From Paracoccaceae bacterium (GTDB lineage: Bacteria > Pseudomonadota > Alphaproteobacteria > Rhodobacterales > Rhodobacteraceae): a stretch of 47,138 nucleotides of DNA. The stretch spans positions 1-47,138 of the forward strand of contig JACONK010000022.1 in the NCBI GenBank assembly GCA_014323795.1, given 5' to 3'. Below are positions 1,103 to 46,835 of the stretch, one piece after another. Below the pieces are notes generated by a model. The model saw nothing but the letters and a program-made list of their open reading frames with translations. It ran no database searches and was not told where the DNA came from. The translations under genes were made by a program, and so were the position numbers. The stretch's first letter is position 1. Each line of letters starts with the position of its first letter.

Positions 1103-2483
1103 CCCGCATGGCGGTTCGGTTAAGGCACGACAGGCGCTTTCTGATCGGTTCTGTTCCCGTTTATCCACGAATGATTTCCTTAACCGGCGGGTTGTTTCCT
1201 ATCAGGGCAATCGCAAAACCCCCGGTCTGCGCTGGATGAAATATAAGGAAGGGTTTTCCGGTGCGCTTGTCGCCCACCTGATCGCACAGGAAAATCCGTG
1301 CGCTGTTCTTGACCCGTTTGCCGGAATGTGCACGGCCCCCCTGATCGCCGCCGGGCTTGGCCGCCGGGCGACGGGAATCGAAATCATGCCGGTTGGCATA
1401 CGGGCCGGGATGGCCCTTGCGCAGGCGGCGAACGGACTGTCCCGAAACGATTTTGACAAACATGCATCGGATCTCAAGAACGCAATCAGAACGGAAGATT
1501 CGGCATCGGGCCTTGCGTTTCCGCATGTGCGGATTACGAAGGGGGCGTTTTCTGACAGGACAGAACAGGAGATCGCAAGGGCGCGGCGGTTTCTGGCGAA
1601 TATGCGCGATGAAGGCGTGCGGGCCGTGCTGGATCTGGCCTGTATGTCGGTGCTGGAGGAAGCCAGTTATACGCGCAAGGATGGCCAGTATCTGCGCTGG
1701 GACCGCAGGGCGGACCGGCCGTTGAGGGCATCGGTGGATTTGGGCCATATTTCATCGTTCAACGCCGCGCTGGAACGGAAGATTGACGAGATCACGACCG
1801 ATTTTGACCGGTTGAGGGAGCAATTCGGCGGTGGCCGTCCATCTTTGGTCAACGGATCATGCCTTGAGTTGCTTAAGGATATTCCGGACGGGGAATTTGA
1901 TATGGTGATCACGTCCCCGCCCTATGCCAACCGGTATGACTATACCCGAACCTATGCGCTGGAACTGGCGTGGATGGGTTTTGGTCAGGATGCGTTTTCA
2001 GACCTCCGTCAAAAGATGCTTTCCGCCACCGTCGAAAACAAAACCAAGAGAGATGCGCTGGCAGAATTCTACGGAACGCATCGGGAGGCGTTTGACCGTG
2101 CCGTGCGCATGTATGATGGCCAGTGTGCAATACGTGAAGTACTGAACATACTTGAAGATCGGCGGGACGAGTTGAGCAACAGGAATGTTCTGAGGCTTAT
2201 TGAGCAGTATTTTTTCGAGATGGCCCTTGTTATTTCGGAACTGGGCCGCATTGTGTGCCCCGGGGGCGTTGTGATTATGGTGAATGACAACGTCCAATAC
2301 CACGGAGAAGAGCTGCCCGTGGACTTCATACTGTCGGATTTTGCCGAAATGGCCGGGTTCCGCTGCAGCACCATATGGCACCTTGCCAGGGGAAAGGGCA
2401 ATTCCAGCCAGCAGATGGCCCGATTTGGCCGCCAGGAACTGCGCAAATGCGTTTACAGGTGGGTGAGGCGCGATGACGGATGA
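1083..2483 (+). CDS. type II DNA methyltransferase (TSPPY type, probable N4-cytosine)
   Basis: The 466-residue product should transfer a methyl group from S-adenosylmethionine to an exocyclic amino group in DNA. Motif I reads DPFAGMCTA (about residues 77-85; the usual second glycine of FxGxG is replaced), and the catalytic motif is TSPPYANRYDY (about 277-287). SPPY is more typical of N4-cytosine than N6-adenine enzymes. Motif I precedes motif IV by some 200 residues, with the presumed target-recognition region between them. I chose ATG 1083 because GGAGGGGG stands just upstream; the frame is open back to a TTG at 1023. It overlaps the endonuclease gene by 11 bp. The base composition is clearly lower in GC than the flanks, which suggests acquisition as a unit. 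The target sequence is unknown. Confidence 0.85.
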   Translation: MTVTVVSPHGGSVKARQALSDRFCSRLSTNDFLNRRVVSYQGNRKTPGLRWMKYKEGFSGALVAHLIAQENPCAVLDPFAGMCTAPLIAAGLGRRATGIEIMPVGIRAGMALAQAANGLSRNDFDKHASDLKNAIRTEDSASGLAFPHVRITKGAFSDRTEQEIARARRFLANMRDEGVRAVLDLACMSVLEEASYTRKDGQYLRWDRRADRPLRASVDLGHISSFNAALERKIDEITTDFDRLREQFGGGRPSLVNGSCLELLKDIPDGEFDMVITSPPYANRYDYTRTYALELAWMGFGQDAFSDLRQKMLSATVENKTKRDALAEFYGTHREAFDRAVRMYDGQCAIREVLNILEDRRDELSNRNVLRLIEQYFFEMALVISELGRIVCPGGVVIMVNDNVQYHGEELPVDFILSDFAEMAGFRCSTIWHLARGKGNSSQQMARFGRQELRKCVYRWVRRDDG

Positions 2484-3384
2484 TGCGGTCCGGTCGCGCC
2501 TGCTGTCCGGTCTTCTGCAACAGCGGAAAGATATGCTTCAACGCCGGATCATTGATGGTGTGGACGTTGAATTGCATTTTGACCCGCCTGACAGGTTTAT
2601 GATCAGCCAATCGGCCTGGAATCATGTGCAGTCTTTGGATATTGTGCCAAAGATTGTGTTCGCGCATCCGGAGATTATTTCCGCGTATCCGACAACATCG
2701 CTTTATTACCGGGGGATGAGTCTGCTTTCCAGAAAAAGGGTTCAGCAGATGGCCGGCACTTCCGTGGCACCTTGGGAAGATGGACGGCAGAAGAAACCTG
2801 TTGAGCCCGAGAAGGCCGGGAAAGTGGCCTGCCTGTATAATTGCATGATCTCCTCGATCATTGAAGGGTCATCCGACTGGACACTGGACAACGGCTATCG
2901 CAACATTCTGGCTACAATGGGAATTATGTATGATGGCATGTTCAGAAACAGGATCGGCAAGATAGTCGAAACCGCGATCAAGGATCGTATTGTGTCATGG
3001 GTAAAGGCCAAGGGGATCGTATCAGAAGATGCGCCGGACATCGGAAGTTACAGGTTTCGTGACGGCACCATAATGAATTTCGGGGCAGAACCGGATATCG
3101 AGTTTGTAAGGGATGATCAGACAATCGCCACGATTGAAATCAAGGGCGGGCGTGACCCGGCCGGGGCATTGGAACGGCTGGGGGCCATGCGCAAGAGTTT
3201 TGAGGAAACGCCTAAAGGTTGTATCAATTTTCTGGTTGCGGGGGTGATCACGCCAGAGATGCGGGTGCGCTTGGAAAAGATGGGTGTCGTCAAGGTCTAT
3301 CTGTTTGACGATATTTCCCGGAACAAAAAGAGTTGGGAGGAGTTCGCGAAGGAGGTTTTTCATTATACGATCCGCGTTATCTGA
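2473..3384 (+). CDS. companion type II restriction endonuclease, PD-(D/E)XK type
   Basis: This 303-residue protein starts inside the end of the methyltransferase gene, the usual tight arrangement of a restriction-modification pair. A nuclease core of the PD-(D/E)XK kind can be read as AEPDIEF (Pro207-Asp208) followed by ATIEIKGG (Glu222, Lys224); these residues would bind the catalytic metal. There is no helicase or ATPase domain, so cleavage should be ATP-independent. I cannot name the specificity. Membership in the XcyI-like Pfam family crossed my mind but is not established. Like its partner it has lower GC than the surroundings. It should cut unmodified foreign DNA at the site protected by the upstream methyltransferase. 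Confidence 0.75.
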   Translation: MTDDAVRSRLLSGLLQQRKDMLQRRIIDGVDVELHFDPPDRFMISQSAWNHVQSLDIVPKIVFAHPEIISAYPTTSLYYRGMSLLSRKRVQQMAGTSVAPWEDGRQKKPVEPEKAGKVACLYNCMISSIIEGSSDWTLDNGYRNILATMGIMYDGMFRNRIGKIVETAIKDRIVSWVKAKGIVSEDAPDIGSYRFRDGTIMNFGAEPDIEFVRDDQTIATIEIKGGRDPAGALERLGAMRKSFEETPKGCINFLVAGVITPEMRVRLEKMGVVKVYLFDDISRNKKSWEEFAKEVFHYTIRVI

Positions 3385-3494
3385 CAGGAAACCGGGCCGC
3401 CGGGCCGGGATGCCCTGACAAATATCCATACCCCGATGGCCTGGCCGGGTATATATTCCGCAACAGAACCGCCGAACAGCCCCGATAGGTATTT

Positions 3495-4847
3495 ATGTCC
3501 CTTGCCGTTATCATCCTGGCCGCCGGGCATGGCAGGCGCATGCGCTCTGCCCTGCCGAAGGTTTTGCATCAGATAGGCCATGCGCCGCTGCTCCACCATG
3601 CCATGGACAGCGCGGGTGCGGTTAACCCTGACATGATCGTCGTTGTGGCCGGCCATGGCGAGGACGGGGTCGCCGAAGCCGCGCGGGCACACACGCCGGA
3701 TGCGGTGATCGTGACGCAGAAAGACCGGCTGGGCACTGGCCATGCGGTGGCCCAGGCAAAAAAGGCCCTGGGCAATTGCGCCGGCGATGTGGATGTGATC
3801 GTGCTTTACGGCGATACGCCTTTTATCAGTGCCGACAGCCTGCACCGCCTGCTCGCGGCGTACGCCGGCGGGGCGGCGGCCGTTGTGATGGGTTTTGAGG
3901 CCGCTGACCCGGGCCGGTACGGGCGCCTGAAAACCGGGGCGGACGGTATGCCTGAGGCCATAGTCGAGGCAGGGGACGCATCGGAGGCGGAACGGGCGAT
4001 CACGCTCTGCAACTCCGGCATCATGGCGGCTTCGGCCCAAACGATGTTCACCATGATCGGGCGCACAAACCGGGCAAATGCGGGCGGCGAGTACTATCTG
4101 ACCGATGTGATCGCCGAGGTACGCAAGGCCGGGATGAAAACCGCAGTGGTCACTTGTGCGGAGGCAGAGACGCGCGGCGTTAACTCCCGCGCGGACCTGG
4201 CCCTGGCAGAGGCCGTCTTTCAGGCCCGCAAACGGGCGGAGGCCATGGAAAACGGCGTGACCCTGACAGCACCGGCAACGGTTCACTTCGCCAGGGATAC
4301 CCGTATCGGCCGCGATGTGACGATCGGGCCCAACGTGGTGTTCGGCCCCGGGGTGACAGTGGACTCCGGTGCGCTGATCCGTGCGTTTTCCCACCTTGAA
4401 GGCTGCCATGTCAGCCCGCAGGCCATTGTCGGCCCCTACGCCCGCCTGCGCCCGGGGGCCGAAATTGGTTCCGGCGCACGCATCGGCAACTTCGTGGAAA
4501 TCAAGGGGGCAGTCATCGGCACCGGGGCCAGGGTGAACCATCTGTCTTACCTGGGCGACGCAAGCGTCGGCGCAGAGGCAAACATCGGTGCGGGCACAAT
4601 CACCTGCAATTATGACGGTGTCTCCAAACACGGGACCGAAATCGGCGCACGGGCTTTCATCGGGTCAAACACGGCACTGGTTGCGCCCGTGCGCCTGGGG
4701 GCCGGCGGGATGACCGGTGCCGGCTCTGTCATCACGGATGACGTGCCGGACGGGGCACTCGCCATCGCGCGGGCCGGGCAGACAAACAGGCCAAACCTGG
4801 CACGGCGCCTGATGCGCCGTCTGCGGGCGGCCAGGAAAGAGCGCTAG
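3495..4847 (+). CDS. glmU: bifunctional UDP-N-acetylglucosamine pyrophosphorylase / glucosamine-1-phosphate N-acetyltransferase
   Basis: GlmU acetylates glucosamine-1-phosphate and then joins it to UTP to make UDP-GlcNAc, the precursor of peptidoglycan and lipid A. The N-terminal uridyltransferase half opens with LAAGHGRRM and PKVLH (Lys22). The C-terminal half, from about residue 230, is a left-handed beta helix of hexapeptide repeats ending in the acetyltransferase site around HLSYLGDASVG and GTITCNYDG. The length of 450 residues is normal. It is the first gene of a tight forward run: glmS follows after 2 bp. A weak GATAGG stands before ATG 3495. The function is secure. Confidence 0.97.
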   Translation: MSLAVIILAAGHGRRMRSALPKVLHQIGHAPLLHHAMDSAGAVNPDMIVVVAGHGEDGVAEAARAHTPDAVIVTQKDRLGTGHAVAQAKKALGNCAGDVDVIVLYGDTPFISADSLHRLLAAYAGGAAAVVMGFEAADPGRYGRLKTGADGMPEAIVEAGDASEAERAITLCNSGIMAASAQTMFTMIGRTNRANAGGEYYLTDVIAEVRKAGMKTAVVTCAEAETRGVNSRADLALAEAVFQARKRAEAMENGVTLTAPATVHFARDTRIGRDVTIGPNVVFGPGVTVDSGALIRAFSHLEGCHVSPQAIVGPYARLRPGAEIGSGARIGNFVEIKGAVIGTGARVNHLSYLGDASVGAEANIGAGTITCNYDGVSKHGTEIGARAFIGSNTALVAPVRLGAGGMTGAGSVITDDVPDGALAIARAGQTNRPNLARRLMRRLRAARKER

Positions 4848-18634: not shown

Positions 18635-19084
18635 TCAGTCAAACCGGCCGTCGTGCAGAACCCAGTATACCGGGTCGTTGCGCACGGCGTCGTTACCTTC
18701 GGCAAGGTCCGCCGGCAACTCCCCGTCCTTGTCCCGCGCCCTGATGTTCGCACCCGCGTCAATAAGGGCGCGGACGGCATCCGGGGTGCCATTCCTCGCC
18801 GCCCGGTGAAGCGGTGTTTTGCCCTTTTCGTCCCGCGCCGCGACATCCGCGCCCGCGTCAAGAAGGGCGCGGATGGCCTCCGGGCTCTCGTCCGCCGCAA
18901 AGTGAAGCGGTGTCCCGCCGCCTTTGTTCCGCGCCGCGATATCCGCGCCCGCGGCGATGCAGGCTGCCACGCGCCCGGCCGGTGCCGTGTCCCAGAAGCT
19001 CTCTTCCGCCCAGTTGCAGTCATTTGCCCGGGCGGGTGGTGCAAGCATGAGTGCCGCCAGCGCGGCGGCTATCAGGTGTTTCAT
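18635..19084 (-). CDS. secreted small ankyrin-repeat protein (copy 1)
   Basis: The 149-residue protein begins with a clear signal peptide, MKHLIAAALAALMLAPPARA, cleaved before Asn-Asp-Cys. The mature part has a short Cys-containing cap (CNWAEESFWDTAPAGRVAAC, perhaps a disulfide), about two and a half ankyrin repeats (TPLHFAADESPEAIRALLDA and TPLHRAARNGTPDAVRALID) and a C-terminal cap ending VRNDPVYWVL. It should act in the periplasm or outside the cell as a protein-binding scaffold; the partner is unknown. ATG 19084 follows GGGGGAAGAC and the conserved leader. It is a close paralogue of the gene at 24208-24561, including flanking DNA. Confidence 0.85.
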   Translation of the reverse strand: MKHLIAAALAALMLAPPARANDCNWAEESFWDTAPAGRVAACIAAGADIAARNKGGGTPLHFAADESPEAIRALLDAGADVAARDEKGKTPLHRAARNGTPDAVRALIDAGANIRARDKDGELPADLAEGNDAVRNDPVYWVLHDGRFD

Positions 19085-19168
19085 CGGGTCTTCCCCCTGT
19101 CGGTTTTGCCCATCCCTGCACTGGCTGCCGCGAAAGTCAAGTGCCACGCCGGGAAAGCGGCATACCGC
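19085..19168 (-). promoter_or_regulatory. conserved ankyrin leader, copy 1
   Basis: Reading on the minus strand, TTGACT (19135-19140) is followed after exactly 17 nt by AGGGAT (19112-19117), then GGGGGAAGAC and ATG 19084. The TTGACT box begins 56 nt before the start codon. Nearly the same DNA precedes the other ankyrin genes, and homology with copy 4 extends a further 28 bp or so upstream (GCCGCTTTCCC and CGTGGCAC are shared). It is probably promoter plus ribosome-binding site. Confidence 0.6.
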
Positions 19169-19266
19169 CCGCCGGGCCTGCCGGTCCCGGCCCGTGTGGC
19201 GCGGCGCACCATCGGCCGCCCCGTCCCGATGCCCCCATTCCTGCCCCGCACCGGGCCTTCCGGATG

Positions 19267-20820
19267 TCAGTCAGGCCAGGCCTCGTGCAAATCCCGAAAC
19301 ACCGGGTCGGCACACACGGCGCTGTTATCTTTGGCAAGGTGCGCAGGCAACTTCCCGTCCTTGTCCCGCACCCTGATGTCCGCGCCCGCGTCTGTCAGGG
19401 CGCGGACGGCATCCGGGGTGCCCCACCACGCCGCAATGTGCAGCGGTGTTCTGCCGTCTTTATCCCGCGCATCGGGATTCGCGCCGGCGTCAAGAAAGGC
19501 GAGGATGGACCGCGCATGATCTCTCCATGTCGCATCGTGCAGCGGTATCCTGCCGTCCTTGTCCCGCGCATTGATATCCGCACCCGCATCTATCAGGGCA
19601 CGGATGGTCTCCGGTGCACCAAACCCCGCCGCCCGGTGCAGCGGTGTTTGGCCGTATTTGTCCCGCACCGCGATATCCGCACCCGCGTCTATCAGGGCAC
19701 GGGCGCATTTCGGGTCGCCCCCCGCCGCCTTGTAAAGCGGTGTCACGCCAGCCTTGTCCCGGGCCGCGATATCCGCACCCGCGTCTATCAGGGCGCGGAC
19801 GGTGCCCGGATACCCCCCCTCCGCCGCCAGGTGCAGCAGCGTATCGCCGGCCCGGTTCCGGGCCGCGATACGCGCACCCGCGGCGACAAGTTCCCGGACG
19901 GAACCGGGATCCCCCCCCTCCGCCGCCGCCTTGTAAAGCGGTGTATCGCCAGCCTTGTTCCGGGCCGCGATATTCGCACCCGCGTCTATCAGGGCGCGGA
20001 CGGAACCGGGATACCCCCCGGCCGCTGCCAGGTGCAGCGGTGTATCGCCAGCCTTGTTCCGGGCCGCGATATTCGCACCCGCGGCGACAAGATCCCGGAC
20101 GGAAACCGGATGCCCCGCCGCCGCCAGGTGCAGCGGTGTCACGCCATCCTCGTTTCGCACATTGGTCTTCGCACCCGCGTCAAGAAGGGTGCGGACGGAA
20201 TCCGGATAGCCCCCGGCCGCCGCCAGGTGAAGCGCCGTCATGCCATCTTCGTTGCGCGCATTGATCTTCGCCCCCGCGTCAAGAAGGGCGCGGACGCAGC
20301 CCGGCTTTCTCCCCGCCACTGCCGCCAGGTGAAGCGGCGTATCGCCAGACCATTCGACCCGCGCCGCGATATCCGCGCCCGCGTCTATCAGGGTGCGGAC
20401 GATTTCTGTACGGACATCTCTCGCCAGGGTTTTGAATTGTTTAAGCAGAACATTGTTACTTTTTGTGTGGAGCATTTGCGCACGTTCGTCATCTGTCCAG
20501 ATTCCCAAAACCATCCCCGCCGCCCTGTGCAGCGGTGTCCAGCCGAATTCATTCCGCGCCTCCGTATCCGCACCCGCGCTGATGAGTGCACGGACGGCCC
20601 CCGGCCCGGCAATCACCGCGCTGTGAAGCAGTGTGTCGCCGTATGCGTCCCGTGCATTGACATCCTCCCCTGCGGCGACAAGCGTACGGATGGCCTCCGG
20701 GTTGCCTTCCCACGCAGCCGTGTAAATTTCGGCCATGCCGTCTTCGTCCCGCCCGCACCGATGCAGGCTGCCATGCACCCGACTGTCGCCGGCACCTGTC
20801 TGTTCCGTTGTCTGTTCCAT
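19267..20820 (-). CDS. large cytoplasmic ankyrin-repeat protein (copy 2)
   Basis: The 517-residue protein is almost entirely ankyrin: I count about 13 repeats of the form GDTPLHLAAAGGYPGSVRAL followed by DAGANIAARNKA, and a C-terminal cap (KLPAHLAKDNSAV) shared with the two small paralogues. There is no signal peptide; the N terminus is MEQTTEQTGAGDSRVHG. Repeat 3 is broken by an insertion of roughly 35 residues (GIWTDDERAQMLHTKSNNVL and following) encoded by a locally AT-rich stretch around 20413-20515. ATG 20820 is preceded by AGGGAGAAGAC and the same leader. Ankyrin arrays bind proteins, and in host-associated bacteria some are delivered into host cells, but no secretion signal is visible. 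Confidence 0.88.
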   Translation of the reverse strand: MEQTTEQTGAGDSRVHGSLHRCGRDEDGMAEIYTAAWEGNPEAIRTLVAAGEDVNARDAYGDTLLHSAVIAGPGAVRALISAGADTEARNEFGWTPLHRAAGMVLGIWTDDERAQMLHTKSNNVLLKQFKTLARDVRTEIVRTLIDAGADIAARVEWSGDTPLHLAAVAGRKPGCVRALLDAGAKINARNEDGMTALHLAAAGGYPDSVRTLLDAGAKTNVRNEDGVTPLHLAAAGHPVSVRDLVAAGANIAARNKAGDTPLHLAAAGGYPGSVRALIDAGANIAARNKAGDTPLYKAAAEGGDPGSVRELVAAGARIAARNRAGDTLLHLAAEGGYPGTVRALIDAGADIAARDKAGVTPLYKAAGGDPKCARALIDAGADIAVRDKYGQTPLHRAAGFGAPETIRALIDAGADINARDKDGRIPLHDATWRDHARSILAFLDAGANPDARDKDGRTPLHIAAWWGTPDAVRALTDAGADIRVRDKDGKLPAHLAKDNSAVCADPVFRDLHEAWPD

Positions 20821-21011: not shown

Positions 21012-22667
21012 ATGGCAGCCTATCAATATGTCTATCACATGCACGGGGTATCCAAAACCTGTCCGGGGGGCAGGAAATGCTTTGAAAATATCTGTCTCAA
21101 CTTCCTGCCCGGCGTCAGGATTGGCGTCGTGGGGGTGAACGGGGCGGGCAAATCGACGCTGATGAGGATCATGGCGGGCATCGACAGGGATTTCAGCGGG
21201 GAGGCCCGGGCCGCCGAAGGTATCACGGTCGGCTATCTGCCGCAGGAACCGCAGCTGACCCCGGGCCTCGGCGTCCGCGAAACCGTGATGCTTGGCGTGG
21301 CGGAAAAGCGGGCCATCCTGGACCGCTACACCGAACTTGCCATGAATTATTCAGACGAAACCGCCGAAGAAATGGGCCAATTACAGGACGTGATCGATAG
21401 CCAGGACCTGTGGAACCTTGACGCCGGCATTGACATCGCCATGGAGGCCCTGCGCTGCCCGCCGGATGACGCGGATGTCGGCACCCTGTCGGGCGGGGAA
21501 CGCCGCCGCGTGGCCCTGTGCAAACTGCTGCTGGAGGCCCCGGACATGCTGCTGCTGGATGAGCCGACGAACCACCTGGATGCCGAAACCGTTTCCTGGC
21601 TGCAAAAGCATCTGATCGATTACGCGGGCACCTGCCTGATCGTGACCCACGACCGGTACTTCCTGGATACTATCACCGGCTGGATCCTGGAAATCGACCG
21701 CGGGCGGGGCATCCCCTATGAAGGCAACTATTCTTCCTGGCTGGAACAGAAGGCCCGGCGGATGGAACAGGACGCCCGGGATGACACATCACGCCGAAAA
21801 ACCCTGGAACGGGAGCTCGAATGGATCCGCCAGGGCACCAGGGCCCGGCAGACCCGGCAGAAGGCGCGGATTAACCGATACAACGAACTTGCCGGGCAAT
21901 CGGAACGCGAAAAGACAGGGCGTGCGCAGATCATCATCCCCAACGGCCCGCGGTTTGGCGACAGGGTGATAGAGGTGAAAAACCTGCGCAAGGCGTTCGG
22001 CGACAGGCTGCTGATCGAGGATCTGACGTTTTCCCTGCCCCCCGGCGGGATCGTCGGCGTGATCGGCCCGAACGGGGCAGGCAAATCAACGCTTTTTAAA
22101 ATGCTGACCGGCCAGGAACAGCCCGACGGCGGAACCGTGACCTGCGGCGACACAGTGCAGCTTTCCTATGTTGACCAGAGCCGGGACGCGCTGAACGACG
22201 ATGCAAGCGTCTGGGAAGAAATCAGTGCCAGCCAAGACATCATCAAACTCGGCGATGCGGAGGTCAACAGCCGCGCCTATTGTTCCTCCTTCAACTTCAG
22301 GGGCGGCGACCAGCAAAAAAAGGTTGGCCAGCTCTCGGGCGGGGAACGCAACCGCGTACACTTGGCGAAACTGCTGAAATCCGGCGGCAACGTGCTGCTG
22401 CTGGATGAACCGACCAACGACCTGGATGTGGAAACCCTGCGGGCACTGGAAGATGCGCTGACAGATTTTGCCGGCTGTGCCCTGGTCATCAGCCACGACC
22501 GCTTCTTTCTGGACCGCATCTGCACGCACATCCTGGCGTTTGAGGGTGCGGCGCGGACGGAATGGTTTGAAGGCAACTTTGAGGATTACGAAAAGGACAA
22601 GATACGCAGGCGCGGGCCAAACACGCCGGAGCCCGGGCGGGGGAAACACAGGAAGTTTACCACCTGA
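21012..22667 (+). CDS. ettA: energy-dependent translational throttle protein EttA (ABC-F)
   Basis: This is a soluble ABC-F ATPase that binds the ribosomal E site and gates entry into the elongation cycle according to the ATP/ADP level. The 551-residue protein has two nucleotide-binding domains: the first with GVNGAGKST (41-49) and LSGGERRRVALCK, the second with GPNGAGKST (about 354) and LSGGERNRVHLAK, joined by the charged linker that includes WIRQGTRARQTRQKARINRY. AAAGGGC stands before ATG 21012. It is divergent from the large ankyrin gene and splits the ankyrin cluster into a minus-strand and a plus-strand half. Confidence 0.96.
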   Translation: MAAYQYVYHMHGVSKTCPGGRKCFENICLNFLPGVRIGVVGVNGAGKSTLMRIMAGIDRDFSGEARAAEGITVGYLPQEPQLTPGLGVRETVMLGVAEKRAILDRYTELAMNYSDETAEEMGQLQDVIDSQDLWNLDAGIDIAMEALRCPPDDADVGTLSGGERRRVALCKLLLEAPDMLLLDEPTNHLDAETVSWLQKHLIDYAGTCLIVTHDRYFLDTITGWILEIDRGRGIPYEGNYSSWLEQKARRMEQDARDDTSRRKTLERELEWIRQGTRARQTRQKARINRYNELAGQSEREKTGRAQIIIPNGPRFGDRVIEVKNLRKAFGDRLLIEDLTFSLPPGGIVGVIGPNGAGKSTLFKMLTGQEQPDGGTVTCGDTVQLSYVDQSRDALNDDASVWEEISASQDIIKLGDAEVNSRAYCSSFNFRGGDQQKKVGQLSGGERNRVHLAKLLKSGGNVLLLDEPTNDLDVETLRALEDALTDFAGCALVISHDRFFLDRICTHILAFEGAARTEWFEGNFEDYEKDKIRRRGPNTPEPGRGKHRKFTT

Positions 22668-22793
22668 GCACGGGATCAGGCTTTCCCATCCTTTCCACGC
22701 CTCTTCCCGCACCCGTCTTGCCCGCCGCGACCCCTGGTGCGCAAGGCCGGGACTGGCGCAGGGGCGTTGCGGTGCCTGTATGGCGGGCGGCCC

Positions 22794-22849
22794 TTGATTT
22801 CCGCGGCAGCCAGTGCAAGGGTGGGAAAAACCGGCAAGGGGGAAACCGG
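22794..22849 (+). promoter_or_regulatory. conserved ankyrin leader, copy 3 (without an ankyrin gene)
   Basis: TTGATT at 22794-22799, a 17-nt spacer containing CCGCGGCAGCCAGTGC, AAGGGT at 22817-22822, then AAGGGGGAAACC and ATG 22850. Spacing and sequence match the leaders of the three ankyrin genes, but the gene behind it is the AT-rich ATPase gene. Confidence 0.6.
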
Positions 22850-22927
22850 ATGAAACACTTGGCAGCCGCCGCGCCGGCGGCAGCCATGGAAACGACAGGG
22901 GCCGGGGCGCAGAGCTTACAGAGGTGA
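22850..22927 (+). CDS. 25-codon leader ORF, remnant of an ankyrin-gene signal peptide
   Basis: The first 8 or so codons (MKHLAAAA) and the DNA up to GCAGCCATG (about 40 bp) match the signal-peptide start of the secreted ankyrin genes, after which homology ends abruptly. The h-region carries a proline (APAAA) and the peptide soon stops at TGA 22925-22927. That stop overlaps the GTG start of the next gene as GTGA. The peptide is unlikely to be functional as a signal sequence, but its translation could couple initiation of the downstream gene. It may simply be the scar of a recombination event. Confidence 0.5.
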   Translation: MKHLAAAAPAAAMETTGAGAQSLQR

Positions 22928-24003
22928 AATTGAACGGGCAGACAATCCGCATACCCAACCAGATTAACAGTTTGAAGGCTGTGGATAATGCTTTTCGCAG
23001 CCTCAATGATTTGGAGCACTGTGAAATTCTTAATTTTGATTTTCGCTGGTGCCAATTCTCTGAACCATTTGCGCTTCTCTATTTGGGGAGACGGATAACA
23101 AACATTAAGGACGAGCATGTTGCTTTAGAAACCAAAATACTCATTCCCAAACATCCGACTTCCGCCTTTTTCGGTTATGCACCGCATGTTGGCTTTTTTG
23201 ACTTCATCGGTTCCGATATTGGTCGAAAGATGGGGGAGGCACAGGGCTCACCAAACTACTTTCCGATCAGGCATTGGTGTATAGAAAAAATTCTGTCCCT
23301 GTCAAACGGTGATCCTGTGGGGGCATTTATTGACAGACAGGCCGGTAAAATAGCGAAAATTTTAATCCAGGAAGACAGTGGAGATATTTTTGCTATGGTC
23401 CAATACGCAATCCGGGAGATCGTCCGAAACTCCATTGAACATAGCAAGGGCAAATCGTGCTGGTTTTTTGGGCAATACTGGCCGAAGAAGAATTTGGCGG
23501 AAATCGTTGTTATGGATGACGGGGTTGGAATTTCTGATACCCTGATTGATAACGAATACATCGATGTTTCAACCAATCTGGCCGGAATGAAATTATCCCT
23601 GTTTCCAGGGGTAACAGGTGTGACTCGGGCTGAGCGCCTGGAGCAGGATGATACGTGGGGAAATTCAGGTTTTGGGCTTTATATTCTTAGTGAAATTTTT
23701 GGAAAATTTGGTGAATTCCATATGATTTCCGAAAATGACTATTTAAAAATTAATAAACAGGGTCAGTGTCATAAGGCGTACCCGTTCCGCGGAACCGGAA
23801 TTGCGATACGTTTTCCGGTACGCGCTCTGGAACACGCAAGAGGAGAACTTGACAGCATTAATTCCAGAGGGGAAAAACTGCGTTCCGAACTGCTGAAAGA
23901 CTTCCCTATTAAGGCTTCTGTAGCTTCAAGGATGCTAAGTTCCCACTGTTCAAAGAAAATTAAAAAGGGCCAGGATGCGATAGGGTCTCTTGGCACTTTA
24001 TAG
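22924..24003 (+). CDS. AT-rich GHKL-type ATPase protein with an N-terminal STAS-like region
   Basis: The 359-residue product contains a histidine-kinase-like ATPase fold: N-box AIREIVRNSIEHSKG (about 162-176), G1 box VVMDDGVGIS (about 195-204) and G2 box WGNSGFGLYILSEIF (about 245-259). No H-box or receiver domain is seen, so it is not an ordinary sensor kinase. The first 100 residues (ILNFDFRWCQFSEPFALLYL) recall a STAS-like fold; this is a weak impression. Sampled stretches are near 40% GC against about 65-70% around it, which points to recent acquisition. GTG 22924 overlaps the leader-ORF stop. Possible roles are an anti-sigma-type switch or part of a defence module; none is proven. Confidence 0.7.
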   Translation: MKLNGQTIRIPNQINSLKAVDNAFRSLNDLEHCEILNFDFRWCQFSEPFALLYLGRRITNIKDEHVALETKILIPKHPTSAFFGYAPHVGFFDFIGSDIGRKMGEAQGSPNYFPIRHWCIEKILSLSNGDPVGAFIDRQAGKIAKILIQEDSGDIFAMVQYAIREIVRNSIEHSKGKSCWFFGQYWPKKNLAEIVVMDDGVGISDTLIDNEYIDVSTNLAGMKLSLFPGVTGVTRAERLEQDDTWGNSGFGLYILSEIFGKFGEFHMISENDYLKINKQGQCHKAYPFRGTGIAIRFPVRALEHARGELDSINSRGEKLRSELLKDFPIKASVASRMLSSHCSKKIKKGQDAIGSLGTL

Positions 24004-24120
24004 TGAGGATGACAAGATCCATGCAAAGGTATGCACATACGCCTGATCAATCGCCGGTCCGCGGGAACAGCCCAAAGATGGCCCGGCGCGGGCCAGGAAC
24101 TGGGGGTATCATGGCGGGGC

Positions 24121-24207
24121 CGGCGATATGCCGCTTTCCCGACGTGGCACTTGATTTTCGCGGCAGCCGGTGCAGGGATGGGCAAAACCAAACAGGGGGA
24201 AGACCGG
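24121..24207 (+). promoter_or_regulatory. conserved ankyrin leader, copy 4
   Basis: TTGATT at 24151-24156 and AGGGAT at 24174-24179 are 17 nt apart, followed by AGGGGGAAGACCGG and ATG 24208, 57 nt from the first box. The upstream part (ATGCCGCTTTCCCG, CGTGGCAC) is shared with copy 1. Confidence 0.6.
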
Positions 24208-24561
24208 ATGAAACACCTGACAGCCGCCGCGCTGGTGGCAGCCATGCTTGCACCACCCGCCCGGGCAAATGACTGCAACTGGTTGGAGCAGAGCTTCTGG
24301 GACACGGCACCGGCCGGGCGCGTGGCAGCCTGCATCGCCGCGGGCGCGGATGTCGCGGCGCGGGACGAAAAGGGCAAAACACCGCTGCACCGGGCGGCGG
24401 CGCGGGGCAGAACGGAGGTCGTCCGCGCCCTTCTTGACGCGGGCGCGGACATCAGGGCCCGGACCAAAGACGGAAAGTTGCCCGCGGACCTTGCAGAGGA
24501 TAACGAGGCCGTGCGCAACGACCCGGTATACTGGGTTCTGAACGAAGCCCGGTTTGACTGA
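24208..24561 (+). CDS. secreted small ankyrin-repeat protein (copy 3)
   Basis: The 117-residue precursor has the signal peptide MKHLTAAALVAAMLAPPARA, the cap CNWLEQSFWDTAPAGRVAAC, one clear ankyrin repeat (TPLHRAAARGRTEVVRALLD) and the shared C-cap (KLPADLAEDNEAVRNDPVYW). It is nearly the 18635-19084 paralogue with one repeat fewer, and the 3' flank (GACTGACCGCCGGG and CCCGGTACGGGG) is also related. ATG 24208 was chosen for the signal peptide and the GGGGGAAGAC before it. Whatever it binds in the periplasm is unknown. Confidence 0.85.
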   Translation: MKHLTAAALVAAMLAPPARANDCNWLEQSFWDTAPAGRVAACIAAGADVAARDEKGKTPLHRAAARGRTEVVRALLDAGADIRARTKDGKLPADLAEDNEAVRNDPVYWVLNEARFD

Positions 24562-24638
24562 CCGCCGGGAACCGGACCGCCCGGTACGGGGCCTTCACAC
24601 AGGGGCCGGGGCAGGCCCTGGCCGCCTGAAGGTGTGAT

Positions 24639-25199
24639 TTGGCCCTGACAATGGATAACGACGCAGCCCGGCGGGCCATTGCCTTTCTTGAACGGGCGGA
24701 GGCATTGAAAGATACCCTGCGCACCGGCTGCACGGCTGGCGGACGGGCGGAGGATACGGCGGGCCACACCTGGCGGCTGTGCCTGTGGCTGGTGGTTTTC
24801 GGTGCCCGGGTGGAGGGCCTTGACCAGGCCCGCGCCCTGCGCATGGCGGTGGTCCATGACCTGGGGGAGGCGATATCGGGCGATATCCCGGCCCCCCGCC
24901 AGGGCCCCGGCAAACCGGCACAGGAACGGGCAGATTTCGTGGCCCTGCTGGGTGACCTGGACAACGCGGACGACCTGCTGGCCCTGCGGGACGAATACGC
25001 AGCGGGGGAAACCCTGGAAGCCCGCATCGTGAAAGGTTTTGACAGGCTGGAAACGATAGTGCAGCACACCCAGGGGCAAAACCCGGCGGATTTCAATTAC
25101 GCCTTCAACCTGGGCTACGGCACGGACCGGACGGACCGGCACCCGCTGTTGCGGCAGTTGCGCAGGATTGCGGATAACAAAACCAGGGCGCGGATGTGA
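24639..25199 (+). CDS. HD-domain phosphohydrolase (YfbR/HDDC2-like)
   Basis: The 186-residue protein has the HD signature spread as AGHTWR (His43), VVHDLGEA (His73-Asp74) and GFDRLE. This matches the small HD hydrolases that include 5'-deoxynucleotidase YfbR, which remove phosphate from nucleoside monophosphates. TTG 24639 has AAGG six bases upstream; ATG 24651 is an alternative without an obvious ribosome-binding site. It lies between the ankyrin gene and the nucleoside salvage operon; a role in nucleotide turnover would fit but is inferred. Confidence 0.82.
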   Translation: MALTMDNDAARRAIAFLERAEALKDTLRTGCTAGGRAEDTAGHTWRLCLWLVVFGARVEGLDQARALRMAVVHDLGEAISGDIPAPRQGPGKPAQERADFVALLGDLDNADDLLALRDEYAAGETLEARIVKGFDRLETIVQHTQGQNPADFNYAFNLGYGTDRTDRHPLLRQLRRIADNKTRARM

Positions 25200-34886: not shown

Positions 34887-35600
34887 CTATTCAGGCATGA
34901 GTTCGATTAAGATGATGGCCAAAAACAATTGGTTCTTAGGGGGAAACGACGTCAAATCCATGTAGCACAGCGCGGTATAAATGCCATCCAAGACCACGAT
35001 AAGCAAGAGCCCGATTATCGTGTACATTGTCGAATTGCGAGTGAACCTGAAAGCGCGTTCTTTCTCCAGGAGATCTTTGATTAGATCGTCCTGCATTCTT
35101 TTCTTCAGACAGAACCCGTTATTTGAACAGCCTGGAAAATCCAACTGATCAAGCTGATAGGTACCTCTAAAGGCCAGAAATGTTGGAAGAATCAGCAAGG
35201 AAACAAAGGTCAGGACAAGGTTTTTTACTTGGGGAGGGAGGCTTGGTAAGGTTGGCTGAAGCAGTATTACTAAAGAAATGGTCAGGGCAAAGACCAGGAT
35301 CGTTGTGTTAACAGCACTTTTCTGTTCCACTTTCTTCAGCGTTCCAAGCAAGACTTCATGCGCCGCGGGCGGAAGGACGCCGGGACATGAAGTTTCTTTC
35401 TTACACTGACAAGAGGCTTCTGTTTCATTGCCCTTCTTCAATTCGGCATAGGCACCCATCCGGCGGCGAAAGTCTTCCTTGCGCCTTGGGAAAGCGTAAT
35501 CACACCATACGGAAATGAAATACATTGCCTCCAAAGCAAGAAAACCGATCAAAACCACGATGAATTCGTCATCAAAAAGACTTTTGATAAGCATTCGCAT
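34887..35600 (-). CDS. AT-rich membrane protein of unknown function
   Basis: From ATG 35600 the product has 237 residues and four or five hydrophobic stretches: FIVVLIGFLALEAMYFISVW, NTTILVFALTISLVILL, LVLTFVSLLILPTFLAF, MYTIIGLLLIVVLDGIYTAL and a final NQLFLAIILIEL. Between the first and second lies a charged, Cys-containing loop (ASCQCKKETSCPG). I do not recognise a family. The sampled GC is about 45%, far below the neighbours. The same frame is open farther upstream to GTG 35819 through GC-rich sequence (GEDWLQVPDPAF, RAFFEQDIRWPRRY), which looks like a remnant of another gene fused to it; the true start is therefore uncertain. Confidence 0.6.
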   Translation of the reverse strand: MRMLIKSLFDDEFIVVLIGFLALEAMYFISVWCDYAFPRRKEDFRRRMGAYAELKKGNETEASCQCKKETSCPGVLPPAAHEVLLGTLKKVEQKSAVNTTILVFALTISLVILLQPTLPSLPPQVKNLVLTFVSLLILPTFLAFRGTYQLDQLDFPGCSNNGFCLKKRMQDDLIKDLLEKERAFRFTRNSTMYTIIGLLLIVVLDGIYTALCYMDLTSFPPKNQLFLAIILIELMPE

Positions 35601-35843
35601 CCCCCCACGCGCCTTCGGCACATCCGACACACTCGACACATAGCGCCGCGGCCAGCGTATATCCTGTTCGAAGAATGCCCGCAAATCCGGGATGCCGTAT
35701 TGCAGCAGCATAATATGGCCAATGCCCAGGCAGAAGGCAGGGTCCGGCACCTGCAACCAATCCTCGCCCGCAACCGCCGCCCGATGCACGGGGCCGGAAA
35801 TGCCACCCGCAATCTGCACCGATGGGGGTATTTGTACGCTGCA

Positions 35844-36047
35844 CTAAAAGGAAGGCTGACAGGCCGCTTCAGCTTTATCACGCGCCCGTTCCACCAGTTT
35901 GACCGGCGTCAGCGGATCACCGGCCATGCGATAAGCCTTGAAGACGTGTTCCCGGCCGGCACCGGGGTTGGAAATCAGTTCGGTCGTCAATTCATTGGAA
36001 CGCAGATCAAAGGTATAGGCCGCAACCATCCGCCCGGCTTCACGACG
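35844..36047 (-). pseudogene. coding-like fragment, unknown origin
   Basis: A GC-rich frame with good codon use ends at TAG 35844-35846 and contains TRREAGRMVAAYTFDLRS and HVFKAYRMAGDPLTPVKLVE. It is shifted by one frame relative to the truncated methylase that precedes it on the minus strand, and the two frames cross where methylase homology ends. I read it as the 3' end of another gene left by a deletion. No family is recognised, and a small intact gene starting at ATG 36029 is possible. Confidence 0.4.
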
Positions 36048-36454
36048 CGTGAGCCCGGATTTATATCGCGGCCTATAGCCCGTGCACCAAGTTTGGCGGC
36101 TTCGCCGATGGTCGTGCCGCTCCCCATAAAAGGATCAAAGACAACCCGATCCCTGATCCGGACAGGTGTATGGAACGCACCGGAGATATCAGTGCCTGAT
36201 GGCGTAAGGGCACCCAGAACAATGGCGCGAAAGACTGTCCCGAGCCGCCGGGCCCACCATTTATGGATATGATAGCAGGGCCTGTTAAGCTCTTTGCGCC
36301 AGCTTTCAACTTCGGCGATGTGACTGATAAATTCGAAGGGGAATGCGTCATCTTCAAGCGCGCAGGGGCCGGAAAAGGATGCAGGCATATGTTTGGCACC
36401 GGGGCCGGTATCAAAATCAAACGTCTTTTGCATTGCGTACGCCTTAATCGCCAT
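35987..36454 (-). pseudogene. truncated DUF1156-type DNA methylase, N-terminal part only
   Basis: The 155-codon frame begins with a recognisable DUF1156/adenine-methylase N terminus: ISHIAEVESWRKELNRPCYH, IHKWWARRLGTVFRAIVLGA and DPFMGSGTTIGEAAKLGARA with the SAM-binding FMGSGT, ending in IGRDINP. Full-length members are commonly several times longer and contain a catalytic PPY motif, which is missing here. After GRDINP the frame carries unrelated residues and stops at 35987. It is therefore a remnant without catalytic motif, cut by a deletion that joined it to the fragment at 35844-36047. Confidence 0.75.
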
Positions 36455-45492: not shown

Positions 45493-45701
45493 GGTCTGTC
45501 ATATACTCAAAGTGCCCGCCTTTGCAAAACAGTTCTGCCGGATATGGGCATCCCGCTGCCCCAGGGTACACGCCTGTCAGCACCAGTCCGGATGGCGGAC
45601 GGTGCAGGCCCCTTTCCTGGTTTCCGATTTCTGTTTACAACAGCGCACAAGGTGCGGATAACTGCCCTTCCGGCAGGGATGAGACACATTTGGGCGGACA
45701 T

Positions 45702-46835
45702 ATGATGGAAGAAAGCAGTGTATCTGATTTCCCCGCTATCCGCGCCGATCTGCTGGATGAATACCGCCAAGACCATGAAAAGCCTTGGATCATCGGTTAC
45801 TCTGGAGGCAAGGACAGCACGCTGGTTGCGCATCTGGTCTTTGAGATGCTGCTTTCGCTTCCCCCGTCACAGCGTACGCGCCCCGTGCATATTCTGGCCA
45901 ATGACACGCTGGTGGAAAGCCCGCTGGTTGTGCAGCACCTTGCGACGAGTCTGGAGGAGATCAAGGGTGCGGCCAGTGCCTTTGGCTTGCCGGTCATCGT
46001 ACAGATCACACGGCCCGAATTGGCCCAATCCTTCTGGGTCAATCTGATCGGGCGCGGCTATCCCTCGCCCAATCGCTCATTCAGGTGGTGTACGGATCGT
46101 ATGAAAATCCGGCCGACGAGTCGTTATATCAAAAACCAGGTTGACGAGGCCGGTCAGGCGATCTTGCTGCTGGGCGTAAGAAGGTCGGAAAGTGCCGCCC
46201 GTGCGGCCACAGTGAAGCGTTATGACACGGGCGGAAGGCTCAATAAACATAACGATCTGGCTGGCTGCATGGTATATCGTCCAATTGTTGAGCTGGACAC
46301 CGATGATGTGTGGGAGTTTCTGGCGTCGAATGAACCACCATGGGGCGGTTCGTATTCAAAGCTGATTAGATTATACCGGAATGCAAGCGGCGGTGAGTGT
46401 CCTGTGGTCACGTCCAAGGACGATGCGCCGTCTTGCGGGACGACCTCATCGAGATTCGGGTGCTGGACATGCACAGTCGTTACCAAAGACCGTTCGCTGG
46501 AGGGATTCGTTGAAGCCGGGTTTGAGGAATTTACTCCACTGCTGGATTTTCGGGACTGGCTGGTGGCAATCCGTAATGATAAGTGGCGGAGAGAAGCTCG
46601 TCGGCGTAACGGACGAATCACCACAACAAGCACCGGGAGGTTGATTCCGGGCCCCTTTACGCTTGAAACCCGCGTTGAGATAATGGACCGCTTGCAAGCA
46701 CTTGAGGCTAGGATGGGCCAACGGCTGGTCATGGATGAAGAGGTTGCCCTTATCCAAACAATTTGGTCTGAGGACATCGCCAAACAGTGCCAAGCAAAGA
46801 CGCTTGACGTTTTCGAAATCAACAAGGTAACTTAG
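45702..46835 (+). CDS. dndC: DndC-like sulfurtransferase of a DNA phosphorothioation system
   Basis: DndC is the ATP-pyrophosphatase that activates the DNA backbone for replacement of a non-bridging oxygen by sulfur. This 377-residue protein has the PP-loop SGGKDST (residues 34-40) and a PAPS-reductase-like fold. It has the iron-sulfur ligand pattern Cys130 (SFRWCTDRM), Cys245, Cys254 and Cys257 (C-x8-C-x2-C in PSCGTTSSRFGCWTC), with an extra Cys233. It is shorter than the DndC proteins I know of (about 450-530 residues). ATG 45702 is used; the frame is open farther upstream. No dndB precedes it; a small ORF and a dndD-like gene follow immediately. Confidence 0.85.
   Translation: MMEESSVSDFPAIRADLLDEYRQDHEKPWIIGYSGGKDSTLVAHLVFEMLLSLPPSQRTRPVHILANDTLVESPLVVQHLATSLEEIKGAASAFGLPVIVQITRPELAQSFWVNLIGRGYPSPNRSFRWCTDRMKIRPTSRYIKNQVDEAGQAILLLGVRRSESAARAATVKRYDTGGRLNKHNDLAGCMVYRPIVELDTDDVWEFLASNEPPWGGSYSKLIRLYRNASGGECPVVTSKDDAPSCGTTSSRFGCWTCTVVTKDRSLEGFVEAGFEEFTPLLDFRDWLVAIRNDKWRREARRRNGRITTTSTGRLIPGPFTLETRVEIMDRLQALEARMGQRLVMDEEVALIQTIWSEDIAKQCQAKTLDVFEINKVT

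Follow-up and report, generated by a model that had tools for sequence, protein, structure and literature searches.

A stand-alone STAS-GHKL gene related to CapK and VapK as a candidate kinase-like switch

The CapK-CapS pair and the VapKSC toxin-antitoxin operons were described by Chambers et al. (EMBO J 2026; PMC13373217). In their account, CapK is activated by ssDNA and turns a damage signal into immune activation via a STAS substrate, and VapK is proposed to act likewise; CapK adjoins immune and restriction-modification (R-M) operons, and a conserved aromatic residue (W68 in CapK, F54 in VapK) is placed in the ssDNA groove (PMC13373217). The published survey of VapKSC took loci that have vapK, vapS and vapC together, together in one place (PMC13373217); loci like the one reported here would therefore have been passed over.

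We describe a gene for which CapK and VapK, published in 2026 (PMC13373217), appear to be the nearest described relatives that we found, a kinship traced through other relatives that lie near DUF4325 genes. Its product combines a STAS-like domain with a GHKL ATPase domain, which is the VapK-type architecture. The reading that we prefer, at a probability of about 0.45, is that of a stand-alone, horizontally acquired STAS-GHKL gene related to CapK/VapK, which would encode a kinase-like switch without a STAS substrate.

Locus, ankyrin leader and start codon

Within the window (the whole stretch of DNA that was analysed, 47,138 nucleotides), the gene is an intact open frame of 359 codons that runs from GTG 22924 to TAG 24003 on the forward strand. 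The following features define its surroundings:

22789..22888, + strand: copy of an ankyrin-gene leader (untranslated part and 39 nt of signal-peptide coding sequence)
22850..22927, + strand: leader ORF of 25 codons, ATG 22850 to TGA 22925-22927, left over from an ankyrin gene
22921..22927, + strand: Shine-Dalgarno-like GAGGTGA, read from the sequence, with a putative function
22924 or 22930..24003, + strand: STAS-GHKL ATPase gene (359 aa from GTG 22924; 357 aa from TTG 22930)
24208..24561, + strand: next gene downstream, for an ankyrin-repeat protein, with the same leader (start set from the leader alignment)

An earlier note on this DNA described a foreign AT-rich gene of about 40% GC in a 65-70% GC region: the low GC is confirmed, although at a corrected value of 44.1%, and the figure for the surroundings holds only locally, the rest of the window averaging 62.2%. 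GC by codon position is 0.50/0.38/0.45, as against 0.63/0.43/0.76 in the neighbouring ettA. Lower GC than the flanks also marks 57 of 62 loci of the family (mean difference, 8.8 points), and plasmid, phage and viral records all contain relatives; the gene thus looks foreign and horizontally acquired. We found no clean empty site: the ettA regions fetched from 10 genus relatives contain no ankyrin, GHKL or HD match above 60 bits, and the genes that follow ettA in the five listed genus relatives differ from those in the window. Neither a tRNA nor transposon-like ends were seen at the insertion site.

Aligned over 101 query nt, the leader shows 85% identity (E 2.6e-25) to the leader of the downstream ankyrin gene (24208); its identity to the leader of a minus-strand ankyrin gene is 83%. 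Two claims of the earlier note are borne out here, namely that the ankyrin leader was kept together with some 40 bp of signal-peptide coding sequence (39 nt are ankyrin-like), and that a 25-codon leader ORF ends in a TGA that overlaps GTG 22924. This ORF consists of the first 13 ankyrin signal-peptide codons followed by unrelated sequence; since the hydrophobic core and cleavage site have been lost, we read the leftover peptide as no longer a plausible signal peptide. The further claim, that the leader supplies a promoter, is unsupported: two sigma-70-like sites lie in 22600-24700 and none of them in the leader, with shuffled sequences averaging 1.1. Rfam gave no match at gathering score anywhere in the window.

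Another observation concerns the start codon. GAGGTGA, within which the leader ORF stops, stands 2 nt ahead of TTG 22930, and we saw by eye no spaced Shine-Dalgarno sequence for GTG 22924; for these reasons TTG 22930 is probably the likelier start. The position of a conserved IP proline, found in 101/109 family rows, leans the same way: it is residue 9 when counted from TTG 22930 and residue 11 from GTG 22924, and among the 101 rows it falls at or before residue 9 from the first possible start in 69, at residue 10-11 in 10 (the window's GTG frame being counted here) and later in 22. The GTGA overlap noted earlier exists, but its role as a start is doubtful, TTG 22930 having the better position. 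With either codon, ribosomes could re-initiate once the leader ORF has been translated.

The leader belongs to a family of ankyrin-repeat genes, of which the window holds two members with a common leader or N-terminal part, at 18635-20820 (-) and 24208-24561 (+). Further members lie on four other contigs of the same genome (C28, C37, C20 and C8), the copy on C8 looking degenerate. The gene at 24208 is paralogous to the ankyrin gene from which the leader came and is no partner of the STAS-GHKL family.

Several features elsewhere were noted in passing. At 45522-46835 (+), at some 21 kb from the STAS-GHKL gene, the window contains a DndC-like gene (PADLOC DndC, E 3.2e-120); beyond the window, on L068, there follow a PbeC/DndD-like ORF (88-2019) and an ORF weakly like mad8/DndH (2016-3572), and the cluster is apparently a phosphorothioation-type defence system. 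A type II DNA methyltransferase at 1023-2483 (+; PADLOC E 3.3e-111) overlaps a 303-aa ORF at 2473-3384 (+) that has no PADLOC match; both lie in a patch of 52-58% GC and are possibly an R-M pair. Another patch of lower GC, at 34887-36454 (-), holds two ORFs: one of 310 aa that by eye looks membrane-like, and one of 155 aa that weakly matches methyltransferases. The 3,532-bp contig C13 (L180) of the window genome carries a second ettA, 81% identical to that in the window, and may be binning contamination.

The STAS-GHKL protein and its clade

The domains and motifs of the protein are as follows:

22939..23148, + strand: N-terminal STAS-like domain, about residues 6-75 (approximate boundaries), containing EPF
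23416..23442, + strand: N box, E165 to H173 (E165, R168, N169, E172 and H173 in 84/84 sequences)
23515..23529, + strand: G1 box DDGVG (D198, G200, G202)
23662..23679, + strand: G2 box NSGFGL, residues 247-252, conserved by construction in a set found with that pattern
23791..23796, + strand: final G290-T291 of the GHKL core, from the alignment
23914..23928, + strand: C-terminal ASVAS, corresponding to the clade motif [AP]SxxS/T (S332, S335)

Pfam places HATPase_c just above its threshold (26.5 bits, cut-off 26.4) and nothing else above cut-off; no HTH was found, nor any match to HisKA with E up to 1, and PF13581 (HATPase_c_2), which we take to be the SpoIIAB-type model, scores 13.4 bits, below its cut-off of 27.4. 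NCBIfam and PADLOC returned only weak matches at chance level, so that none of the three collections assigns the protein more narrowly than to HATPase_c, in keeping with the earlier suggestion of a novel ATPase. That note had also recognised N, G1 and G2 boxes without a kinase H-box and an N terminus recalling STAS domains: the boxes and the final G-T are present, HisKA is absent by Pfam, and a STAS-like domain emerges both in the structure model and in the alignment with relatives. With its motifs intact, the GHKL domain probably binds ATP.

An AlphaFold2 model (74 sequences; mean pLDDT 88.4, pTM 0.86) comprises, from the N terminus, a STAS-like alpha/beta domain, a linker, the GHKL domain and a helical C-terminal tail; confidence in the tail is low to moderate in both structure models. 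Foldseek against the PDB gave two matches with E below 0.001, to topoisomerase VI-B (4.5e-5) and to the N-terminal domain of a DNA-repair protein (9.1e-4), each with a low TM-score of 0.19; anti-sigma factor complexes and STAS domains were non-significant (E 0.17 or worse), the former at ranks 8, 10 and 19 (E 0.17-0.76). A profile search of the sequences of solved structures yielded only weak GHKL matches (best E 0.22). By hhalign, the clade aligned with four other STAS-GHKL relatives at 99.9% (E 1.9e-34) over 272 columns, up to residue 308 and across both domains. A DUF4325 gene adjoins at least three of these four; one such DUF4325 protein matches VapS of PDB 9z7o (E 3.6e-4) and another does so at E 0.37. 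Bearing in mind that this alignment spans two domains and that three of these relatives lie next to DUF4325/VapS-like genes, we conclude that the clade has the same core as STAS-GHKL proteins of this type.

Relatives are widespread. Plasmid records contain six and phage records two, at 27-30% identity, and a six-sequence profile (E <= 1e-10) matched 15/398 genomes of a phylum sample, including the window genome and several distant matches. Pattern-led scans with a seven-sequence alignment recovered 21 relatives in viral contigs (from 54 stretches) and 125 in bacterial genomes (from 128 stretches; the best 80 of the 125 were kept); a genome-contig scan with the single protein query found none. 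In 148 genomes, mostly of the genus and family, that were searched with the protein, a full copy was present in the window genome alone. Two genomes, G020 and G088, have pieces of the gene at contig starts (in G020 beside ribosomal protein genes), and the profile search found a divergent full-length copy in G256, of the same family.

When the relatives were dereplicated at 80% identity, 84 sequences remained, and in all of these, the window's included, we found Y85, P114, E165, R168, N169, E172, H173, Q184, D198, G200 and G202. Conservation of the N and G2 blocks is partly by construction, since the loci were found via WxN[ST]G[YF]GL (viral loci also via EIxRNxxEHS). Two aromatic residues are conserved in the clade, namely F49 (92%) and Y85 (84/84). 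At the EPF positions of the N-terminal domain, P occurs in 98% and F in 92% of the clade; SpoIIAA-type STAS domains have a phosphorylated D-S-S-G at this place. Because P and F stand there instead, the clade's own STAS-like domain lacks the usual phosphoacceptor.

In a quick tree of 63 rows, made without the tail columns, a single branch (SH-aLRT 97) separates 50 clade members (dereplicated at 60%, with the window included) from 13 other STAS-GHKL relatives; three sequences were left out, the truncated L086 of the clade and L185 and L187 of the others. The rows span Pseudomonadota, Bacteroidota, Cyanobacteriota, Thermodesulfobacteriota, Myxococcota, Verrucomicrobiota and Bdellovibrionota. The window protein sits on a long branch (1.59, against a median of 0.55; several other rows are also long) and its placement was flagged as unsure by the tree tool, for which reasons it may have drifted in function. 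The clade is apparently undescribed, no description having been found in the literature searched, mostly outside subscription journals.

Among the 13 other relatives, DUF4325 lies next door or in the same stretch, according to Pfam or PF14213, at L006, L050/L066, L051/L067, L186 and L188, and was seen by eye in the sequence only at L054, L055, L056 and L058. These last four are, by eye, apparent STAS-GHKL-DUF4325 fusions in one chain, and at L186 such a fusion has a PF14213 match in an open frame. The fused DUF4325, the presumed substrate, takes the position of the serine tail in the present clade.

A further feature of the clade is this tail. The motif [AP]SxxS/T stands near the C-terminal end in 79/84 clade sequences, whereas shuffled tails give a mean of 6.5, and the sequence past the GHKL core is otherwise variable. 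Of the remaining five, one is a truncated row, two are near variants (ESSVAS and ASKSA) and two have no such motif. All 15 relatives outside the clade that were compared, some of them distant or partial, lack the motif, both within their final 60 residues and across everything beyond the matched core. We propose that the tail serines are a candidate phosphoacceptor or docking site.

Substrate, neighbourhoods and competing explanations

A census of 46 genomes with a clade member (one further locus lay outside the search) found a DUF4325 match in seven, six of them over cut-off; the other 39, including the window's, have none. In the window genome, which is 98% complete, the three Pfam models DUF4325, STAS and STAS_2 all failed to match; as a control, the same models match in 3, 10 and 7 of 14 genomes, respectively. 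A divergent STAS protein could escape all three. The genes next to the STAS-GHKL gene encode EttA, ankyrin and HD proteins. More generally, a same-strand ORF of at least 70 aa lies within -60 to +40 bp of the GHKL gene in 40 of 108 loci (103 distinct GHKL proteins) and in none of the other 68, as judged from mechanical ORFs; the coupled neighbours are diverse and unrelated in kind, and some look by eye like housekeeping genes.

One recurring gene order was noted at L156, L160, L162, L163 and L168: a gene for an AAA ATPase (about 650 aa) comes first, then the GHKL gene and then one for a DUF6638 protein, with ends that overlap or nearly so (Pfam was run on one member of each).

We envisage insertion of the gene downstream of a duplicated ankyrin leader; this leader may drive its transcription and perhaps allow re-initiation. 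Its GHKL domain probably binds ATP and, by analogy with CapK and SpoIIAB, probably has serine/threonine kinase activity that depends on what occupies the STAS/GHKL interface; by the same analogy, the signal might be ssDNA or another sign of damage. CapK and VapK have a STAS/DUF4325 substrate alongside, unlike this gene, and its own tail serines are the best candidate for a target, which the protein or a sister subunit would phosphorylate or dock. The data establish the clade to which the protein belongs, its architecture, its intact motifs, the conservation of the tail and the lack of a match to the three STAS-type Pfam models in this genome; what we infer is the kinase activity, its trigger, its target and any benefit to the host. 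The most far-reaching form of this proposal, a one-protein switch that unites sensor, kinase and target in one gene, with the [AP]SxxS/T tail as phosphoacceptor in place of a separate STAS substrate, and that responds to DNA damage or to infection by phage across many phyla, is unlikely as it stands.

Several other explanations have to be weighed against the preferred one of a stand-alone, kinase-like switch. The protein could be a kinase of the VapK/CapK type whose operon has been lost, and which now either acts in trans on a distant substrate or is a remnant in decay. It has the architecture of relatives that do lie next to DUF4325 genes, a long branch and no partner in cis, all of which would fit such a loss; on the other hand, the residues conserved in 84/84 and the tail motif are intact in the window protein, most genomes with a clade member have no DUF4325 match (39/46), and the window genome has no STAS, STAS_2 or DUF4325 match. 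We consider this explanation unlikely. We hold as quite unlikely that the protein is not a kinase but an ATPase that depends on nucleic acid and cooperates with a DEAD helicase. Such a helicase abuts or overlaps the GHKL gene in 6/108 loci, which makes it the most frequent coupled neighbour, and it does so in two gene orders (GHKL first at L062 and L151; helicase first at L144, L147, L149 and L157). The coupled helicases measure 860-910 aa in five loci (two ORFs in L147), are about 30% identical between the two orders and are related to the SngC and BrxHI models. The window genome itself holds an L151-type helicase on another contig (C37, 27243-29816; L210), between UvrB-like and RuvB-like ORFs (both by eye), with 49% identity to the L151 helicase over residues 2-857 of 862. 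This type is rare: it occurs in 1/33 genus genomes (E <= 1e-100), the window genome itself, and in 3/398 of the phylum sample (E <= 1e-60), again including the window genome. However, an in-frame TAG ahead of the ATP-binding motif means that the copy may be broken, the helicase was chosen after the neighbours had been seen, and as a general partner it was rejected, with 0/50 other clade genomes matching at E <= 1e-60 (a search that left out the coupled loci on purpose; the same query did match in the genus and phylum searches). It is a lead, not a partner.

A third group of explanations starts from the setting of the gene. The earlier note had raised a defence ATPase, which kinship makes possible, but PADLOC found no excess of defence genes around the family: 135 flanking ORFs (of 165 selected, from 35 of 42 eligible loci) were compared with 137 control ORFs (of 143, from 17 of 20 contig-start stretches, an imperfect control), and among the matches listed (the best 25 of 57 and the best 25 of 68 families) none exceeded 4/135 or 2/137. 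Genes with a single defence match occur in both sets. Individual defence neighbours were looked at for proximity, namely a type III R-M system (L061), BrxL (L082) and an N-6 methylase with DraIII (L003); L003 and L110 have a HEPN/RES-like upstream neighbour below the Pfam cut-off. That the gene is a domesticated phage counter-defence or lysogeny accessory gene we regard as improbable: 21 relatives lie in viral contigs and two in phage records, and the Streptococcus GHKL-DUF4325 relatives follow holin or lysozyme genes, a usual place for accessory genes, yet more relatives (125) come from bacterial contigs, albeit from collections that differ in size, and among the neighbours of the window gene we could identify none of phage origin. 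The ankyrin-linked system implied by the earlier note, with the leader fusion as part of its design, has the leader and leader ORF in its favour and is extremely improbable. Ankyrin repeats were found in only 1/110 fetched stretches with a relative (L096), so that the fusion looks like an incidental, local accident, and the same leader accompanies ankyrin paralogues elsewhere in the genome. Of the two traits of homologues that the earlier note had named together as evidence against itself, occurrence without ankyrin context was thus observed; membership of a well-known family was not, the nearest described proteins that we found being CapK and VapK, whose partner the clade lacks.

A large CapK/VapK-related clade that has intact motifs, a wide host range, carriage on mobile elements and no such STAS substrate would provide a test of lone kinases, and its conserved serine tail is an immediate target for mutation.

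Comparison with described GHKL proteins

SpoIIAB and RsbW are anti-sigma factor GHKL kinases that act on STAS partners; they are single-domain proteins, and the N box of SpoIIAB follows the pattern ExxxNxxxH. The present protein shares this N box and has weak fold matches to anti-sigma factor complexes, but scores far below the PF13581 cut-off and differs from their single-domain build. VcSduA (PMC12137116) and phage rIIA (PMC7824862) resemble it in having a GHKL ATPase domain in a conflict setting; in these, however, the GHKL domain is at the N terminus and is joined to a nuclease or a variable C-terminal domain, and the relevant text of the two papers does not mention a STAS domain (PMC12137116, PMC7824862).

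CapK, as described by Chambers et al. (PMC13373217), has in common with our protein the STAS-GHKL core. The latter, in contrast, has no N-terminal HTH, and its gene has neither CapS (STAS-wHTH) beside it nor an immune operon directly downstream. VapK, compared by its description in the same paper (PMC13373217), is alike in combining STAS and GHKL domains without an HTH. The differences are that no VapS, the STAS/DUF4325 protein with a conserved Ser/Thr, adjoins the STAS-GHKL gene, that Pfam shows no VapC-like PIN nuclease among the adjacent genes, and that the clade forms a separate branch and carries the [AP]SxxS/T tail, which is absent from the compared relatives.
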